Notes under the pieces: generated by a model
The model's input: only the letters and a program-made list of their open reading frames with translations
The model's database searches: none
What the model was told of the DNA's origin: nothing
Source: a virus
Length of the DNA stretch: 25,186 bases
Strand: one strand, 5' to 3'
Virus record (IMG/VR): IMGVR_UViG_3300007539_000188
Span: 1 to 25,186 of that record
Program-made: the position numbers and the translations under genes
Shown: positions 7,201-22,476 of the stretch, one piece after another
How the letters are laid out: each line of letters begins with the position of its first letter
How positions within the stretch are numbered: position 1 is the stretch's first letter

Positions 7201-8831
7201 GCTATGCCCTCAAAAGTATACACTTGTTCTTCAGGTAAAAGAGTTAATGCTCTGTGCACAGGTGTGTAATCAATAATTTCACCCTGTACTGACAAAGGCT
7301 GTACGGGAGCATCAGGTAAAGTGGTAATCTCTTCTGTAATTGGATATGCCTGTCGGCTTGCTTCAACCGGGTTTCCTACGTCCGTATCTGTCCGGGCAGC
7401 AGCAGTAACCAAAGGTTCTACGTCTATTACCTGTTCGGCTGCGGGTAGCGTGGCAATGCCCTCTTGTAGTTGTGCTGCTGTCTCTTCAGCCGTTGCTGGT
7501 CGTAAATCATTGGGGTTAATTCTGACCGTTGTGTCTCTAGGAATAAAAATACCTGTTGGAACATGAATACTATCCTCTTCAACATATTCAACCTGTTGAA
7601 TATCAAACTCTTCGTTTGCATTAAAATCACGAACTTCTACTTCGTCACCCCGCCCCGGTCGGGATTCAGGTAAATTAACAACGGGTATGTCATCAAGAGT
7701 AGTTGGAGCCTGTGCACCCGGCGCAACTGCTGCCGGGTCTTCACCACGCATAACTGCTGCTGTCTCTTCAGGCGTTGCCATGCGCTGAGTGACTTCAGTT
7801 CTGTTTGCAAATCTAGCTGGACGTTGTTGAGTACCCGCTGTCACAAAATCATCAAGACTGCCCCTTACAGTGGAACCCGCTGGAATTCTTGTGCCTGTTC
7901 CAGTGTGAAACATGTCTTCTTGAAATTGAAACAGTTCCATTTCACCCAATGCAGGATCTGCATCTGGACGTGAGAAGTCTAAAATTTCCCCAACATCAGG
8001 AATATTGTCCGTGGGTATGTCTGTAATATCCCCCGTAGACTGAAGACGCACAGGCTGCTGCGCTATCTCTTCTGGAATAGCAGGTGGTTCCACTTCACCT
8101 GTAAAGCCAACTTGCGGAGTGTCAGATACAAGGTCCGTGGACCGAGAGCCACGTCTCATCAACGCAGGAATACCAAAATCCAAAAGCGGAATCGGTGTTA
8201 AAACTTCTGATGCCGTAAAACCCTGTCTGAAGTTAGGGTCTTCAAAATCATCACCAAAACCTGCCAGCCGTGCTATGCCCTCGGCCCCCGCAGCTTTCTG
8301 AATGTCCCTAGTAATTCTCCTCATTGGTGGTGAGAAAATTTGATTAGACATACCCGGCAGCATAGGCAGGGGAAGAACGTCGTCATCTTTTTCACGTTCT
8401 TCTTCTGTTGGTCTAGGTGCTGGAACTGGGACAGGAACTTCTAATGTATTAAAGAACTCTGACAGCGCAGCGTATTCCTGTGGGCTTTCCGCCAAAGTCA
8501 ACAGGTTCGCGTCACGTTCCTCTGGACTCATCTCTGCAAGTTCTTTGTACACGGCATTCGGATCTTGGCCCGTGAGCTTTGCTAACAAATCGCCAATAAC
8601 TGCTGGCAGTCCTATAATGTCAGCAGGTAACCCCACGATTGTAGACGGAATACCAACCCCTATACCCTTTAAGGTTGGTAGGATTTCTGCACGTCTTGCT
8701 GCCTGACCAGCAGGAGAAAGCTCATCAAACATAAGTTGACGACCCAGCAAATCACGCTGGACGTTTTCTATCGCTTGTCTTTTTTGACGTTGTCTTGGAG
8801 TCTCTGGTCTTGGTTCGGGCAGGGCAACCAT
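4278..8831 (-). CDS. 1517-residue phage protein between TerL and portal (polyvalent-like C-terminal region)
   Basis: Function unknown. Residues 1-50 are basic and polar. Residues 55-88 form a Gly/Pro/Ile-rich hydrophobic stretch (IGVGIPSTIVGLPADIIGLP). Residues 130-150 are Pro/Glu-rich. Two copies of an internal repeat occur at about 300-375 and 415-460 (pattern H-x2-TG-x2-IP-x2-TVR ... AT-x-EETAA). Helical regions fill about 700-1350. The C-terminus has AVKKGYDGVVFP (from about 1394), VVLRFTPEIRAIF and a final basic AKGG segment ending IHSGIGAMAREVM. The 'A-x3-G-[FY]-D-x-V' plus 'TPE-[IM]-R' combination is reminiscent of a C-terminal domain of giant phage polyvalent proteins, some likened to ADP-ribosyltransferases. 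Size, hydrophobic segment and location suit an injected virion protein, but this is inference. Junctions on both sides are TAATG. Confidence 0.8.
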   Translation of the reverse strand: MVALPEPRPETPRQRQKRQAIENVQRDLLGRQLMFDELSPAGQAARRAEILPTLKGIGVGIPSTIVGLPADIIGLPAVIGDLLAKLTGQDPNAVYKELAEMSPEERDANLLTLAESPQEYAALSEFFNTLEVPVPVPAPRPTEEEREKDDDVLPLPMLPGMSNQIFSPPMRRITRDIQKAAGAEGIARLAGFGDDFEDPNFRQGFTASEVLTPIPLLDFGIPALMRRGSRSTDLVSDTPQVGFTGEVEPPAIPEEIAQQPVRLQSTGDITDIPTDNIPDVGEILDFSRPDADPALGEMELFQFQEDMFHTGTGTRIPAGSTVRGSLDDFVTAGTQQRPARFANRTEVTQRMATPEETAAVMRGEDPAAVAPGAQAPTTLDDIPVVNLPESRPGRGDEVEVRDFNANEEFDIQQVEYVEEDSIHVPTGIFIPRDTTVRINPNDLRPATAEETAAQLQEGIATLPAAEQVIDVEPLVTAAARTDTDVGNPVEASRQAYPITEEITTLPDAPVQPLSVQGEIIDYTPVHRALTLLPEEQVYTFEGIAQLLKSLPSSARRDLYNLGAIDDPMVVPLDEANYNKYLKSKNQDKSFSEFTTERNASQRKAPDFIKLKENNNGELVFAKEIKKSDDPDNPAKNVQKQPQSSLLSVLEDYARMERQRLAADPTAEPVTLTKAGILNLYNTVSPQVAVKSVQTSDVVRPQGMDDPEYFQMLEQQDVTPKTAAKVVSLGTQQNPFSNNAGTDATIMIFNNPARTSFLDKEFKGVPGHDYFGGSDMIPGYIGHVRYDNITPVEEVQPGVFQPTGEKFAGYLEGQSNLQSALRGTGEDAESLARSDIEPVTPDMLLFMKSVEEELEGTGLSVANDKLDAVEEASKNLRNTTDPSETLRERAKKLSSRALSLRAQLVSQAAVDFGSNGSRVDVLATQARELSDVMDRAGYLGDYEGFLDFIQNSGSARANNFGEEVAAIFETIKNDYTTRNGMTENQYQYFSGIDPDTDATDLAADLAEGSKLHELLFGLAKAGGQPGNTTLRESFGIPDNIIQRGAQVRRQNPTDETQLPLSYRLQESEKFTEDERLALVNLAERPEVDEDTLIDLINGEGAFEGRGLTDIESFPLTYKKIMAEFREAQRRATGRGEENAGTAVVMTLKAMTENRTANRAEQLSTINDVLATPEAMSDLQALGRPAEEIDILRTFLRNATPDQIHEVGLKTVTGGPLYNRLKAAGAGSYLQREPNIREIFESQYLQLPEQQAKERIIEEAPIFAKAAEPDNVALISANIDYGVARQAQKAADDDFIREVIGLTGQDTVEEFGRTVPIETTRQAQTSLSKFTGDLVREKINEGSVIRPTDYGEDELVDMVKNTIERQYSAPKFAVPTAFGNPAQLNHFMYRSFIQEAVKKGYDGVVFPSWQAQKSAHIMDSEEVAKLTYQKSLIEALDIIRKEHPEFPSYEELTQSNFKYQTTVGGERTVPNDSVVLRFTPEIRAIFEDRVIRRAKGGEVDLRPRKMIHSGIGAMAREVM

Positions 8832-10321
8832 TAGTAATACTCTCTTTTGCGCGGCGGTGCGTCGTCTTCAAACTCTTCGCCATCCAATCTAATAAAACCG
8901 CCCTGGCGAAAACGCATCAGGGCCATAGTCATACTATCACAAAAGTCATCATGGTCGCCATTAGGAAATGATGCAACCTCTTCGATGACTTCGTCAGCAA
9001 ATTTTTCCCCAACAGGATACCACACTTTGCCAGATTCAAAAATAGGCGAAACAATATGCATACGCGCAGTCTTGTCCAGACCTCCCCCACCCTTCCGGCG
9101 ACCGGGGGCAAAGGTCGCAACAGGGAGGTTCAGTAACCGCATTTCATCAGCCAATGGTTGACCAGACGCTTTTGCCTCAATCAACATCAACTCTGGGTCC
9201 CAATACTCAAACTCTTCTCGCGCTATGGTTTTAAGCTCTGGAAAGTTCCACCGACCCTTCTTTGCATCCAGCAATATCAGATGCTCCTCAGAATTTTTGT
9301 ACGGACGAAACACGCCCCACGTTGTAATGGCAGAGTAGTCAGCGGTTTCTTTCTTTGAATACGCGGTGTCGTAAGACTGTATTATGTAGTCTAAATCAGG
9401 AATGTCTTCTTCTTCCCACTCCTGCCACCACTCCCGCTTGACCATCGCGGTTTCTTCGGATGTAGGATTTTGTTGCCACTGCGCATTCCATTTGCCCACG
9501 GACAACGAAGCTTTGACCTTGAGAAGCTCGTCCTTTTTCCAAAACTCAGGCCATAATGGTTCCCCCGACGGCATAATCGCAGGAAATTCTACAACTTCCC
9601 ACTGGTCAGCCATTATATCTTTGGCTTGTGCGGTCAGTAACCTGCCCGTGATATCCTTCTTTGACCACCGGGTTTGAACGATAATAATGCTGCCACCAGG
9701 CTGGAGTCTCTGTCTAGGACCCGAAGTGTACCATTCATACGCATTATCATAAGCAGATGTGGACAGGGCATCTTGTTCCGAGTGGGGGTCATCAATGATA
9801 AGCAAGTCCGCGCCACGACCAGTCATTGCTGCGCCCACCCCAGCAGCAAAGTACTCCCCGCCAGACGCTGTTTCCCATCTACCAGCCGCCTGACTATCCG
9901 CTTTCAAGTCCGTGTTCGGAAAAACCTCTTTGTATTTGGGGTCAGCGATGAGGTCACGAACCTTACGTCCAAATCTTACAGCAAGTTCGGTATTCATGGT
10001 AGCTTGAATAATTTTTAACTTGGGGTTCCTGCCAAGAAACCAAGACGGCATAAGATAAGATGCAAATTCTGATTTAGAATGTCGGGGTGGCATATTCACA
10101 ATCAGTCTTTTTAAATCACCGCTTGCGATACGCTCCAGCTTTTCAGCTATGATTCTATGATGGGTCCCCTCTATAAAATTGTCATAGACATGGTGGACGT
10201 ATGACATGAAGTCTTCTTGCGCTTTGTCACGCAGGTCAAGTCGTTTCGCCTGCTCCTCAAGCAGGTAGATTTCCTTGAGCACGTCATCAGGCAGTAGTTC
10301 TAAGCTGGCTGTGTTCTCCAT
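8831..10321 (-). CDS. terL: Terminase large subunit (packaging ATPase/nuclease)
   Basis: 496 residues, full length for the family. The N-terminal ATPase has a variant Walker A, MPPRHSKSE (77-85), Walker B LLIIDDPH (173-180) and the coupling motif QTRWSKKD (216-223). The C-terminal RNase H-fold nuclease has YDTAYSKKETADYSA with acidic D318, LMLIEAKASG with E382, and GDHDDFCDS with D457/D459 as likely metal ligands. It cuts concatemeric DNA and drives it through the portal. The ATG at 10321 has no good Shine-Dalgarno upstream, and a possible promoter lies only a few bases before it, so the mRNA might be nearly leaderless. The small terminase gene is not adjacent but about 2.3 kb away beyond a rightward island. 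Confidence 0.95.
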   Translation of the reverse strand: MENTASLELLPDDVLKEIYLLEEQAKRLDLRDKAQEDFMSYVHHVYDNFIEGTHHRIIAEKLERIASGDLKRLIVNMPPRHSKSEFASYLMPSWFLGRNPKLKIIQATMNTELAVRFGRKVRDLIADPKYKEVFPNTDLKADSQAAGRWETASGGEYFAAGVGAAMTGRGADLLIIDDPHSEQDALSTSAYDNAYEWYTSGPRQRLQPGGSIIIVQTRWSKKDITGRLLTAQAKDIMADQWEVVEFPAIMPSGEPLWPEFWKKDELLKVKASLSVGKWNAQWQQNPTSEETAMVKREWWQEWEEEDIPDLDYIIQSYDTAYSKKETADYSAITTWGVFRPYKNSEEHLILLDAKKGRWNFPELKTIAREEFEYWDPELMLIEAKASGQPLADEMRLLNLPVATFAPGRRKGGGGLDKTARMHIVSPIFESGKVWYPVGEKFADEVIEEVASFPNGDHDDFCDSMTMALMRFRQGGFIRLDGEEFEDDAPPRKREYY

Positions 10322-10332
10322 ACCCGAACGAT

Positions 10333-10361
10333 AATATACGCGAATGAATTTATCAACCCAA
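10333..10361 (-). promoter_or_regulatory. Possible leftward promoter for terL and the late block
   Basis: On the minus strand TTGGGT (56-61 of the 10300s) is followed by a 17-base spacer and TATATT (10333-10338). The -10 matches TATAAT at five of six positions; the -35 is weak (three of six). Transcription would begin near 10326, about five bases before the terL ATG at 10321. The hairpin at 10360-10391 abuts the -35, so binding there could control it. Confidence 0.35.
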
Positions 10362-10391
10362 CATACACAATGCTAACGCATTGTGTATGTT
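10360..10391. promoter_or_regulatory. Perfect 14-bp inverted repeat, possible operator
   Basis: AACATACACAATGC, a 4-base loop TAAC, then the exact reverse complement. It lies in the divergent region between terL (leftward) and the winged-helix gene (rightward). It has no run of T on either side and no transcript ends here by gene orientation, so a terminator is unlikely. It touches the putative terL -35, which favours an operator or protein-binding site. Confidence 0.6.
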
Positions 10392-10412
10392 ACGGGCGCA
10401 AGGGGGGCGGGG

Positions 10413-10441
10413 GTCACTATTCCGCCATGCGGAATAGTGAC
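10413..10441. promoter_or_regulatory. Perfect 13-bp inverted repeat, possible operator or structured site
   Basis: GTCACTATTCCGC, loop CAT, then GCGGAATAGTGAC. It follows a G-rich stretch (AGGGGGGCGGGGG, 10400-10412) and lies 20 bases before the rightward -35. It has no T tract. A second perfect palindrome within 60 bases of the first suggests a regulatory or replication/packaging recognition region rather than termination. Confidence 0.55.
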
Positions 10442-10461
10442 GTGTCCCAAGTAACCCCGGC

Positions 10462-10490
10462 TTGACTCTTATGTTATCCCATGTTCTAAT
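10462..10490 (+). promoter_or_regulatory. Rightward sigma70-type promoter for the 10547 gene
   Basis: TTGACT (10462-10467), a 17-base spacer, and TCTAAT (10485-10490); each hexamer matches consensus at five of six positions. The start point is expected near 10497. The spacer contains TATCCCATGT, also found at the 13383 promoter, which suggests a common regulator or ancestry. Confidence 0.7.
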
Positions 10491-10496
10491 TTAAGA

Positions 10497-10513
10497 GCAG
10501 GGATAGTCCCTGC
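10497..10513 (+). promoter_or_regulatory. Hairpin at the predicted 5' end of the mRNA
   Basis: GCAGGGA, loop TAG, TCCCTGC: a perfect 7-bp stem starting at about the predicted transcription start. A stem at the very 5' end is a known way to protect mRNA from 5'-dependent decay. The same bases contain GGGATA, the reverse complement of the TATCCC element in the promoter spacer, so an operator is the alternative reading. Confidence 0.45.
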
Positions 10514-10546
10514 GTATTGTAACCAGTCAACGAAAGGATTAATCTG

Positions 10547-11157: not shown

Positions 11158-11346
11158 ATGGAAAAAGAACTAGACTGCGTTATCTGTGGTGATCCAATCG
11201 AAGAACAAGCCAATGGCTGGAAGTATGGACACAATGCCCAGCCCGTAGCGGAAGGCCAGTGTTGCGACATCTGCAATACCCATGAAGTCATTCCAGCAAG
11301 AGTGGCTCAGATATTTGGTTGTTCAATCGATGAGGTTAAGATATGA
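11158..11346 (+). CDS. Small zinc-finger protein
   Basis: 62 residues. Four cysteines in CVICG (C7, C10) and CCDIC (around C35-C39) bracket the segment DPIEEQANGWKYGHNAQPVA and very probably bind one zinc ion. I recall very similar small proteins in many marine phages, with the pattern CxxCG...W..GHNA.PV...CC..CN. The C-terminal helix EVIPARVAQIFGCSIDEVKI follows. Molecular role is unknown; such fingers often contact host proteins or nucleic acid. Translation start appears to depend on the hairpin-bridged ribosome site. The stop overlaps the next ATG (ATATGA). Confidence 0.72.
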   Translation: MEKELDCVICGDPIEEQANGWKYGHNAQPVAEGQCCDICNTHEVIPARVAQIFGCSIDEVKI

Positions 11347-11421: not shown

Positions 11422-11455
11422 GCAGGCCCAGCGTAGCTGGGCCTGCATTGTTGTG
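11422..11455 (+). terminator. Rho-independent-type terminator of the 10547-11417 operon
   Basis: GCAGGCCCAGC, loop GTA, GCTGGGCCTGC: a perfect 11-bp GC-rich stem (11422-11446) followed by ATTGTTGTG. It lies just after the last small gene. The T content of the tail is modest, but stem strength and position support termination. Confidence 0.72.
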
Positions 11456-11469
11456 CCTTGCACCTTGAA

Positions 11470-11558
11470 ACAAAAACCTGCGGTCGCAGGTTTTTGTCTT
11501 TCGGTCGCAGGTCGCAGGACACCAAACTGCGGTCGCAGTTTGGTGTAGAAGGTCGCAG
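11470..11558. repeat. GGTCGCAG repeat cluster with two perfect hairpins (upstream cluster)
   Basis: Five copies of GGTCGCAG start at 11482, 11503, 11510, 11531 and 11551; two are tandem with a 7-base period. Two copies form the loops of perfect 13-bp inverted repeats: ACAAAAACCTGCG|GT|CGCAGGTTTTTGT (11470-11497) and ACACCAAACTGCG|GT|CGCAGTTTGGTGT (11519-11546). The first has T/A runs on both sides and could terminate transcription in both directions. The arms differ but the CTGCGGTCGCAG centre is shared. The same repeat recurs at 12271-12350, on the other side of the Gp88-like gene. Confidence 0.85.
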
Positions 11559-11566
11559 GCTCAGGC

Positions 11567-11595
11567 TTGCAATTGCCCATTACTTGGGATAGAAT
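11567..11595 (+). promoter_or_regulatory. Promoter of the Gp88-like gene
   Basis: TTGCAA (11567-11572), a 17-base spacer, and TAGAAT (11590-11595, five of six). TGGGATA, the reverse complement of the TATCCCA seen in the other two rightward promoters, overlaps the -10. The ribosome site AAGGAAA sits shortly before the ATG at 11625. Confidence 0.55.
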
Positions 11596-11624
11596 GGGAG
11601 AAGATAATAAGAAAGGAAAAAGCT

Positions 11625-12212
11625 ATGTTATCAAACACCAGTAAAATGCCTGGCTATTCTGTTAGCCTTTCAGCATGGAAATGTAAAACAGGCGACAAGC
11701 TAGCGAAGATTAAAGGCTCAGTTTGCCATGATTGCTACGCTAGAAAAGGCCGCTACAACATGCCAAACGTGGTCGACAAAATGGAAGAGCGGTTAAAGTT
11801 TTTTAATGCTCTGGATTTTGTGCCTCAGATGGTCGCCATGTTAAACAAAACAAGGTCGCCTTATTTCCGCTGGTTCGATTCAGGCGACGTGCAGAACGTC
11901 CGCATGGCCTTAAACATTATTGACGTGGTCAAGGCAACACCAGAAAAGAAACACTGGATTCCCACAAAAGAACGCAAAATTTGGCAGGAAGCATTGAAGC
12001 TTGAAGCGCTGCCAGATAATGCTGTCATCAGATACAGCGCAACAATGGTAGACGACACGCCGCCGCAAGATTGGGAACATTCAAGCGCAGTCGTAAAGAA
12101 TGCCGCGCCAATTGGTCACGAATGCCCAGCACCAACACAAGGCGGAAAGTGTGGCGAATGCCGCGCTTGCTGGTCGCGTGATGTTAAAACCGTTTCATAT
12201 CACAAACACTAG
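11625..12212 (+). CDS. Gp88-like cysteine-rich protein, possibly radical-SAM-related
   Basis: 195 residues. N-terminal cysteines are C20, C34 and C37 (WKCKTGDKLAKI ... VCHDCYA). Strand-like segments follow: YFRWFDSGDV (80-89), KHWIPTKE (109-116) and AVIRYSATMV (133-142). A second cluster, HECPAPTQGGKCGECRACW, gives C167, C176, C179 and C182. This matches phage proteins I recall carrying the 'gene 88' domain. The strand order and cysteine clusters recall the Gp37/Gp68 (DUF5131) radical-SAM-like group, although the canonical CxxxCxxC is absent. The gene has its own promoter and terminator and lies between GGTCGCAG repeat clusters, which suggests an acquired cargo gene (moron). Enzymatic function is unknown. 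Confidence 0.75.
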   Translation: MLSNTSKMPGYSVSLSAWKCKTGDKLAKIKGSVCHDCYARKGRYNMPNVVDKMEERLKFFNALDFVPQMVAMLNKTRSPYFRWFDSGDVQNVRMALNIIDVVKATPEKKHWIPTKERKIWQEALKLEALPDNAVIRYSATMVDDTPPQDWEHSSAVVKNAAPIGHECPAPTQGGKCGECRACWSRDVKTVSYHKH

Positions 12213-12217
12213 GACAC

Positions 12218-12257
12218 ACAGCGCATCCGTCAGGGTGCGCTGTTTCGTTATGCTTTT
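12218..12257 (+). terminator. Terminator of the Gp88-like gene
   Basis: ACAGCGCATCC, loop GTCA, GGGTGCGCTGT: an 11-bp stem with one G-U pair (12218-12243), then TTCGTTATGCTTTTTT. It starts six bases after the stop at 12212 and ends before the convergent nuclease gene's stop at 12270. Confidence 0.72.
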
Positions 12258-12269
12258 TTCCGATAACAT

Positions 12270-12710
12270 TCAGGCGCAGGTCGCAGGTCGCAGGGTCGAG
12301 CGGAGTTTTTCGATAACCAAAAGGCGCAGGGTCGCAGGCGCAGATCGCAGATCCCCTGTCCATAACGCCAAAGTCCGCAGGTCATCGGCCCTTGCACCTT
12401 GGATTTCCAAAGATTTTTCGCTCTCAAATAAAAATACATCAGGCTCGAAGGACGGCGAAGCAAGAAAAAAAGAAACGCCACCGCACCTAGAATGCGATAA
12501 ATGCCAAGCAATTTGTGAGGGTTGTAGGGTTATCCCATTTCTTTTTATTATCTTTAATTCAACCCATACTGGTGCGCCATCGATGCACATATATACATCA
12601 GGCATTCCCTCTGCCACACGATTCTCAATCCGTTGGCAGTGTGTCTTTTTCGGCAGGTGTTTCTTCAGTGATTGCCAGAGGTTCTTCTCTGTCTTCGATG
12701 ATTTTGGCAT
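12270..12710 (-). CDS. VRR-NUC-type nuclease
   Basis: 146 residues. The PD-(D/E)XK core is readable: helix EKNLWQSLKKHL, then RIEN (E29), GMPDVYM (D38), WVELK (E51 and K53) and a following helix with Q63/Q66 (LQPSQIAWH). This is the pattern of small phage VRR-NUC nucleases, thought to cut branched DNA. Its first 28 codons overlap the 3' end of the small terminase in another frame; the overlap includes the family's N-terminal helix, and GAGGGGGAAA lies upstream of the ATG at 12710, so the start is credible. The C-terminus beyond about residue 108 is unusual and largely made of the GGTCGCAG repeats. Pairing with terS suggests trimming of replication intermediates before packaging. Confidence 0.78.
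   Translation of the reverse strand: MPKSSKTEKNLWQSLKKHLPKKTHCQRIENRVAEGMPDVYMCIDGAPVWVELKIIKRNGITLQPSQIAWHLSHSRCGGVSFFLASPSFEPDVFLFESEKSLEIQGARADDLRTLALWTGDLRSAPATLRLLVIEKLRSTLRPATCA
12271..12356. repeat. GGTCGCAG/GGCGCAG repeat cluster (downstream), inside the nuclease gene
   Basis: Copies of TCGCAG start at 12281, 12288, 12332 and 12345, with variant GCGCAG at 12274, 12324 and 12338. There is also an imperfect duplication with a 50-base offset: T-run + CGATAAC + GGCGCAGG at 12254-12280 and again at 12306-12330. These bases form the last coding part of the leftward nuclease gene, where they encode DLRSAPATLR and RPATCA. The core is the same as in the 11470-11558 cluster. Confidence 0.8.
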
Positions 12711-13224
12711 CAGATATTTCCCCCTCGATAAAAGCGTGTGGATAAGATTTCCGCAGTTCTGCCAGACGTGCGACGATATCCTGTTTGGTCATGCTGTCCA
12801 ACTGGTGGACGTGTTGCTGTTCTCGCCTGTCAATAGTCAGGCCACCCAGAGCGGAACGAATTTTTTCAGCGTTGATTGCGGCAGAATATTGTCCAGCCTC
12901 TTCTGCGCCTCTGGACAATTCATCCAGACGTTTAAGCTGGTGCATCAGGGTCACTCCATATCTGCGTTCAGCCGCTTGTCTCAATTCTTTTATCAGTTCG
13001 ACAACGTCCGGAAAATCTCTGCCGTTCAAAAGTTTGGATGCCATAGTGATAGAAGACTTGTCAGAGTAGCCAGCCATTCTTGCACACTCAGCGTTACTAT
13101 GTCTGCCCTCGACATAATACTTGGCAAAAGTCTTCTGACGTTCCGTCAGTCCGGCAGGTCTGCCAACTTTGCCTATAGTGTTTTCTGTGGGTTTTTCTTT
13201 TTCAGTTTTCATTTTTCGTCTCAC
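12625..13224 (-). CDS. terS: Terminase small subunit
   Basis: 199 residues from a GTG at 13224 with GAGGGG five bases upstream; an ATG at 13212 is the alternative. The N-terminal DNA-binding region LTERQKTFAKYYVEGRHSNA followed by AGYSDKSSITMASKLL (26-66) is the helix-turn-helix typical of small terminases of the Terminase_2 type. A helical oligomerisation region follows (VELIKELRQAAERRYG ... SALGGLTIDRREQQ). The acidic C-terminus (about 165-199) is the part that overlaps the nuclease gene and is probably flexible. It would recognise phage DNA and hand it to TerL. Upstream is the GTGTC/GACAC repeat array, a possible regulatory or packaging recognition site. Confidence 0.85.
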   Translation of the reverse strand: MRRKMKTEKEKPTENTIGKVGRPAGLTERQKTFAKYYVEGRHSNAECARMAGYSDKSSITMASKLLNGRDFPDVVELIKELRQAAERRYGVTLMHQLKRLDELSRGAEEAGQYSAAINAEKIRSALGGLTIDRREQQHVHQLDSMTKQDIVARLAELRKSYPHAFIEGEISDAKIIEDREEPLAITEETPAEKDTLPTD

Positions 13225-20943: not shown

Positions 20944-22476
20944 ATGAACCAAGCTGAACGGTTCATGGCGGCATTTGAAGGCTTCAGTGCCGCGCATGGA
21001 CAGACACAAATATCAGATGAAAGACGCGCTGGAAAACAAAAGGCGAAGTCAATCATCGTTCGGAAGCCACTAACCTTGGAGCTTATTGTCGCACACCTTG
21101 AGGGTAAGCACGGCGTAGGTTCTATACCCATCAACGAAAACAGCCAATGTAAGTTCGGTGCGCTGGACATTGACCAGTATCCACTGGACCTTGTCGCACT
21201 TGACAAGAAGCTGCGTGACAACGATATTCCATGTGTGGTCTGCCGCTCGAAGTCAGGTGGTGCCCACATTTTTTTCTTCTTTACAGAATTTTTTAGCGCA
21301 GGTGTTTTCCGTGACAAAGCCACAGAGATTGCTGCCTACCTTGGATACGGTGGCTGCGAAATATTCCCGAAGCAAGAAGAGATTCTTGTCGAGCGTGGCG
21401 ATGTTGGAAACTTCATTAACCTTCCGTACTTTGATGCGGAACAGACGATGCGTTACGCTGTCAAAGAAGATGGAGACGAAGCGGACCTTACCGAATTTCT
21501 GGATATAGTAGAAGCCAGAAGAACCAACCCCAAAGATTTTGAAAAGCTACAACTTGGTGACCCTGTCAATGAGTTTGAACAGTGGGCACCGTGCCTGTCA
21601 CATATGTTTAGTCAGGGCATACCAGAGGGTACGCGCAACACAGTTATGTTCGCTGCCGCTGTTGGTGCCAAGAAAGAACAACCTGAAAAGTGGAGAGAAC
21701 GTCTTGAAGAAATTAATGTCAAATACTGTACGCCCCCTTTACCAGCTTCTGAAATCGTCACTATTCAGTCTCAACACGAGAAGAAGGAATATGGTTTCCC
21801 CTGTGATCAAGAACCCCTCAAGTCGTTCTGCAACAAAAGCCTCTGCAAAACGAAGACATGTGGAATAGGTAGCCACGTTCAGCATGTGGAGATCACTGGT
21901 CTGTGCGTGGTTAAGTCCGAACCGCCTGTCTGGTTCTGTGATGTAGGTGGTCGCCGTGTCGAACTAACAACCGATGACCTGCAAACATCACAGCGTTTTC
22001 AAAAAGCTTGCATGGAACAGATTCATGTCATGCCGCCAATGATGAAGACGGCTGATTGGCAAGAGGTTGTGTCCATGTTGATGGATGGCATGAGTGAAAT
22101 AGATGTGCCGGAAGAACTTACCTATAAAGGCCAGTTCATGGACCTGCTAGAAGCGTTCTGTGATGGTCGGGTACAAGCCCAGTCTGCCGAAGAGATCGCA
22201 CTTGGCAAGCCCTTCACGGACGAAGAAGAGGGGGTTACATACTTCAAGCTAGAGGCACTGCTAAAGTATTTACGCAACCAAAAGTTTGACAGTTACAGCC
22301 GTGGTCAGATTCAAGAGCGGTTAAAAGAACTGAACGACAATGGCACAGCAAACGGCAAAAAGTATTTTGACACTACCAAAGGACAGCAAAAACAACTGCG
22401 CGTTTGGTGGGTGCCAGCGTTTAATACCGAGGTCCAAGTGCCAAGCATCCAGCTTGACAGTGAGGTGCCGTTCTAA
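20944..22476 (+). CDS. Archaeo-eukaryotic-type (AEP) DNA primase
   Basis: 510 residues. It would make primers for DNA synthesis. Catalytic motif I FGALDID (D75, D77), motif II SKSGGAHIFFF (H108), then CEIFPKQ and GNFINLPYF (155-163) follow the AEP order seen in phage and TOTE-type primases. A helical region IPEGTRNTVMFAAAVG (226-241) resembles PriCT domains. C287, C296, C301 and C306 (FPCD ... FCNKSLCKTKTCG) may bind zinc or an iron-sulfur cluster as in PriL. The C-terminus ends QLDSEVPF, like the putative SSB's DVPF tail. GGAG is seven bases before the ATG. The stop overlaps the next ATG (TAATG). Confidence 0.85.
   Translation: MNQAERFMAAFEGFSAAHGQTQISDERRAGKQKAKSIIVRKPLTLELIVAHLEGKHGVGSIPINENSQCKFGALDIDQYPLDLVALDKKLRDNDIPCVVCRSKSGGAHIFFFFTEFFSAGVFRDKATEIAAYLGYGGCEIFPKQEEILVERGDVGNFINLPYFDAEQTMRYAVKEDGDEADLTEFLDIVEARRTNPKDFEKLQLGDPVNEFEQWAPCLSHMFSQGIPEGTRNTVMFAAAVGAKKEQPEKWRERLEEINVKYCTPPLPASEIVTIQSQHEKKEYGFPCDQEPLKSFCNKSLCKTKTCGIGSHVQHVEITGLCVVKSEPPVWFCDVGGRRVELTTDDLQTSQRFQKACMEQIHVMPPMMKTADWQEVVSMLMDGMSEIDVPEELTYKGQFMDLLEAFCDGRVQAQSAEEIALGKPFTDEEEGVTYFKLEALLKYLRNQKFDSYSRGQIQERLKELNDNGTANGKKYFDTTKGQQKQLRVWWVPAFNTEVQVPSIQLDSEVPF

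Follow-up and report, generated by a model that had tools for sequence, protein, structure and literature searches.

The window analysed here is a 25,186-nucleotide stretch of viral DNA (IMG/VR record IMGVR_UViG_3300007539_000188) whose relatives are HTVC023P-type pelagiphages; the large terminase subunit (TerL) of the cultured member HTVC027P is 60% identical to its own. Between its terminase genes lies a variable interval in which one rightward gene is flanked by two arrays of a short repeat:

8831–10321, minus strand: TerL, left border of the variable interval (PF17289, E = 1.2 × 10−6)
11422–11446, plus strand: terminator-like hairpin of the preceding small gene
11470–11497, no strand assigned: hairpin 1, with perfect 13-bp arms and inverted heptads CTGCG-GT-CGCAG (−19.2 kcal/mol, z = −4.7)
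11482–11558, plus strand: upstream heptad array, with GGTCGCAG at 11482, 11503, 11510, 11531 and 11551
11519–11546, no strand assigned: hairpin 2, with perfect 13-bp arms and the core of hairpin 1 on different arms (−20 kcal/mol, z = −6.0)
11567–11595, plus strand: sigma-70-like promoter of the slot gene (TTGCAA-17-TAGAAT), 8 bp past the last upstream heptad
11625–12212, plus strand: the slot gene, GP88 (PF17338, E = 1.8 × 10−25; 195 aa, Cys-rich)
12218–12243, plus strand: terminator of the slot gene, located by scan and folding
12270–12710, minus strand: PD-(D/E)xK-like nuclease gene (phrog_2165; conserved PD..ELK..Q..W residues)
12279–12380, plus strand: downstream heptad array, with GGTCGCAG at 12279, 12286 and 12330, GATCGCAG at 12343–12350 and GTCCGCAG at 12373–12380, plus GCGCAG variants
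12625–13224, minus strand: terminase small subunit (TerS), right border (PF03592, E = 2.1 × 10−9)

Most of what the original prediction had said of this interval held: its Gp88-like gene matches PF17338 at 90.6 bits (curated cut-off 24.4), the gene's own promoter was recovered by scan at the predicted 11567–11595 and the stem of its own terminator at 12218–12243 (predicted at 12218–12257), all five upstream repeat copies are present as exact GGTCGCAG, and the four downstream TCGCAG copies are three exact GGTCGCAG plus GATCGCAG, accompanied by the GCGCAG variants. The claim that the unit sits between two leftward late genes needs amending, as small rightward genes adjoin it on the left, and TerL, the late gene that points leftward on this side, starts at 10321, approximately 1.1 kb away. 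The predicted GP88 fold is a confident model (pLDDT 90.6) with no significant match in the PDB (best E = 0.058), and we therefore claim no enzymatic function for it; a literature search on PF17338 returned nothing useful. The nuclease matches Hjc weakly (E = 0.018), and its gene adjoins the downstream array in the relatives with a full interval; in the window, its frame traverses that array (12270–12390), giving a repeat-encoded C-terminal tail that varies between relatives. Elsewhere in the window, a primase-like gene (20944–22476) that matches the TOTE conflict-system AEP domain (PF22548, E = 3.1 × 10−16) lies beside a UvrD-like helicase, and a conserved cis element upstream of TerL (10322–10520) combines a promoter-like TTGATA..TATTAT, a G-run, a CCAGTAACCCC-like sequence and two palindromes (10360–10391, which is perfect and varies in sequence between phages, and 10413–10441). 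Two near-complete relatives (G006 and G007) and several short contigs end in this element, a candidate cos site or hairpin assembly break.

The repeat is strongly concentrated around the slot gene. Its core, GGTCGCAG, has 8 exact copies in the 25 kb (0.63 expected; 8 reached in 0 of 100 shuffles), all on the plus strand and all at 11482–12337, with five upstream of GP88, three downstream and none elsewhere in the window. Among relatives it generalises to GNNCGCAG, a period-7 heptad of the TerL-to-nuclease/TerS interval, in which a spacing of exactly 7 between neighbouring copies (seen 288 times) is by far the commonest. The two hairpins, absent from the original prediction, are themselves built on the repeat core: among the loci fetched, the 49 distinct CTGCGNNCGCAG sites have, with one or two exceptions, perfect arms of 12 bp or more, with arm sequences that differ among sites, and both arms of hairpin 2 show an A.T to C.G change relative to the window in two relatives (L163 and L230).

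Relatives (about 80 retrieved with TerL, further ones with GP88 or with the 16-mer GGTCGCAGGTCGCAGG, which was found in 99 stretches, mostly of this phage group, with arrays in the matching interval and orientation) tied the arrays to this one locus. At least two heptads on each side of the slot gene (counted over 180 nt upstream and 420 nt downstream) were found at 42 of 43 distinct loci, compared with 0 of 2,919 control windows elsewhere, and across 48 distinct intervals 595 heptads lay on the slot-gene strand and 32 on the opposite strand (49 and 107 by strand outside the intervals, in 2.9 times the length). Among relatives with longer records (as long as 59 kb), the tandem form kept to the TerL–nuclease interval, the exceptions being one additional pair each in G006 and G007, and the genome's other accessory loci yielded no arrays. 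Arrays of a 7-bp repeat, oriented to one strand, thus border the slot on both sides: the repeat is scarce in the rest of the window and in the remainder of relatives' genomes, and a genome-wide dispersed repeat is ruled out by the near-confinement of the heptads to one interval. Also rejected was a repeat that travels with GP88 in unrelated phages, given that no period-7 arrays surround GP88 outside the lineage; the hits at L031–L033 and L053 run in the opposite orientation and look incidental.

The heptad itself differs among relatives, with CAAGC arrays flanking GP88 at four loci (L064, L069, L070 and L073) and CGCAA heptads at L027–L029 and in a contig from a metagenome-assembled genome (MAG; L300). 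One further relative (L284, 023Pt_psg01) carries period-4 (GCRA)n arrays, GAGC-like repeats, on a single strand to either side of GP88, at the positions of its relatives' heptads. The NN spacers of the two arrays are correlated (cosine 0.66, compared with 0.40 when permuted, by a statistic that ignores phylogeny), but strict co-evolution of the two sides is broken by L004 and L007, which have GGCC in the upstream and GGTC in the downstream arrays. The sole yield of a scan of cellular genomes for a host was the phage contig in the MAG (NYWC01000010.1, loci L299/L300); it sits in a gammaproteobacterial MAG, measures 61 kb and has TerL at each end, which suggests terminally redundant phage DNA binned together with the MAG.

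This phage group keeps one slot between TerL and nuclease/TerS, always holding one of four divergent GP88-like genes. Exactly one slot gene was present in each of the 103 distinct TerL-to-nuclease intervals (none empty, none double): GP88 in 69, a DUF7227-like type in 23, and two divergent GP88 types in 6 and 5, where the profile–profile match of the DUF7227-like type to GP88 is confined to the C-terminal Cys cluster (match probability 5%). Phage morons are single genes with their own promoter and terminator that point opposite to neighbouring late genes. The slot gene resembles them in its own promoter and terminator and in its opposition to the late genes, but it is never absent from collinear relatives (0 of 103 intervals empty) and is exchanged rather than gained or lost; it is therefore not a moron, and that earlier proposal, which supposed presence/absence among relatives, falls away.

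What varies is the open reading frame (ORF), which is swapped between phages by recombination inside a conserved frame (terminator, array, promoter and ribosome-binding site on the left; stop codon, terminator and array on the right), with breakpoints interior to the arrays. For example, the window and L163 are 95.5% identical across the leader with both hairpins, 57.9% in the ORF, 93.3% in the 3′ block and 94.6% in nuclease/TerS, the two sequences diverging somewhere from the −10 box to the start codon and converging again at the last codons; likewise, L212 (GP88) and L227 (DUF7227-like) share an identical leader up to the ATG, with identity back from the stop codon. Conversely, the window and L181 are alike in the gene (94.9%), nuclease (96.2%) and TerS (93.4%), whereas their left and right arrays are 35% and 55% identical (GGTC against GGCC). 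With ORFs swapped while arrays are kept (L163), and arrays differing while the ORF is kept (L181), the arrays behave as a resident frame and not as the mobile part. The alignment of relatives thus revealed ORF exchange in place of a clean presence/absence, and the exchange by recombination foreseen in the original prediction was found, but with breakpoints at the promoter or start codon and at the stop codon or terminator, not at or within the repeats. A small gene to the left (11158–11346) has unrelated replacements in L163, L181 and L230 at clean gene boundaries, without heptads; because it is swapped equally cleanly, the repeats are not needed for exchange.

To either side of the slot gene the arrays differ in their relation to promoters. 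Upstream arrays are followed by a promoter (mean score 8.73, background 6.50) at a median distance of 10 bp, and no promoter was found behind downstream arrays (6.53, background 6.50). The layout is kept with the core CAAGC in HTVC027P, whose gp33 is the GP88 gene: arrays abut TTGACA before gp34 and gp33, a third follows gp33, and the rest of the 57.6 kb holds one stray tandem. In the published RNA-seq of HTVC027P, a temporal cluster of its own, high at 6–9 h, consists of just two genes, gp33 and gp34 (PMC12753301). We infer that this cluster is linked to the arrays directly before both genes, although the link comes from one isolate and gp33 and gp34 differ from most of its genome by strand too. 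Together, promoter linkage and the published expression data point to regulation.

We therefore slightly favour, at a little better than even confidence, a single-occupancy exchange slot whose resident arrays are operators to which a dedicated regulator binds. This would be a sequence-specific protein, possibly a ribbon-helix-helix (RHH) one, with a footprint of 7 bp; bound cooperatively along the upstream array beside the −35 box, it would control when the slot gene is expressed. The two arrays may act as a pair, for example by DNA looping, which would bring any ORF landing in the slot under shared control. A tentative and rather doubtful extension is that the core was rewritten at least three times (CGCAG, CGCAA and CAAGC) together with its binding protein, and that looping between arrays puts an incoming ORF under one programme. 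A precedent is the RHH protein omega (ParB) of pSM19035, whose heptad operators and centromeres are tandem non-palindromic 7-bp repeats overlapping promoters (PMC9499535). The phage arrays share with that system 7-bp tandem repeats at promoters, but have fewer contiguous copies (often 2–3) and a different sequence, one array lacks a promoter, and a search of eight phage records for RHH_1 (PF01402) gave no match above the cut-off and hence no cognate regulator, which counts against operators. Stoperators of cluster A mycobacteriophages are short asymmetric sites in one orientation relative to transcription, distributed genome-wide; the heptads are similarly asymmetric and in one orientation, but are confined to one interval. 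Also counting against operators are the promoterless downstream array (unexplained without looping), a heptad-to-(−35) spacing of 0–23 bp, which leaves no fixed helical phase, and the period-4 rather than period-7 arrays of 023Pt_psg01.

The original prediction saw instead a recombination device, with the repeats as exchange sites and array–gene–array as a mobile or swappable cassette. Such a device would be akin to the PeSL (promoter early stem-loop) elements of T4-type phages, mobile regulatory cassettes reportedly described by Arbiol in 2010 and Comeau in 2014. Conserved PeSL frames of promoter, terminator and stem-loop between single genes provide homology for shuffling (PMC4503421). The slot likewise places a promoter and stem-loop between shuffled genes, but its frame occupies one locus, carries heptad arrays and always encloses one gene of one broad kind, in phages that are not T4-type; nor, unlike PeSL, does it occur in many copies at several hyperplastic regions. 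The exchange of slot genes between phages fits such a device, as do an extra complete unit in L230 (hairpins, array, promoter, 49-aa ORF and terminator) beside the shared leader, an array before each of several rightward cassettes in several relatives, and the mixed arrays of L004 and L007. We nevertheless consider it rather unlikely, as breakpoints fall interior to the arrays, the L181 arrays differ while ORF and flanks remain 90–96% identical, an array-less gene is exchanged as cleanly, other accessory loci have no arrays and the slot is never empty.

Two further readings draw on position and orientation. That the arrays are TerS-binding (pac/cosB-like) sites of a packaging signal accords with their place between TerL and TerS, on one strand and nearly confined to the terminase locus, but inversion of TerS (L070, L073 and HTVC027P) or its location elsewhere (L169) leaves their position and direction unchanged, and they spread over 1–2 kb and, upstream, are tied to a promoter; with the G-rich palindromic element upstream of TerL, where several contigs break, a better cos candidate, we regard this as quite unlikely. 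Heptads serving as iterons for a phage initiator at a replication origin would explain direct repeats in one orientation, and in G003, G004 and the window the cumulative GC skew reaches its minimum in the interval or close to it; however, the skew turns where gene direction turns and is therefore confounded, arrays are more numerous in relatives that have more rightward cassettes, and what the arrays enclose is a coding gene, all of which leaves an origin very unlikely. Finally, tandem repeats that have no function and are maintained in non-coding DNA by slippage would account for the rapid variation in copy number and NN spacer, but seem highly improbable where lineages whose cores differ still retain the two-sided position, the strand and the 7-bp period.

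With resident operator arrays as the preferred reading, the slot offers a compact and abundant example of whole-gene exchange without disturbing regulation, in which the frame is kept and the ORF swapped. It occurs in a large marine phage group, adjoins the DNA-packaging genes and has arrays that resemble promoter switches, and it ties a hitherto unexplained expression cluster of the cultured SAR11 phage HTVC027P to a visible DNA element. That an obligatory slot is filled by four interchangeable GP88-like kinds suggests a function needed by every such phage.
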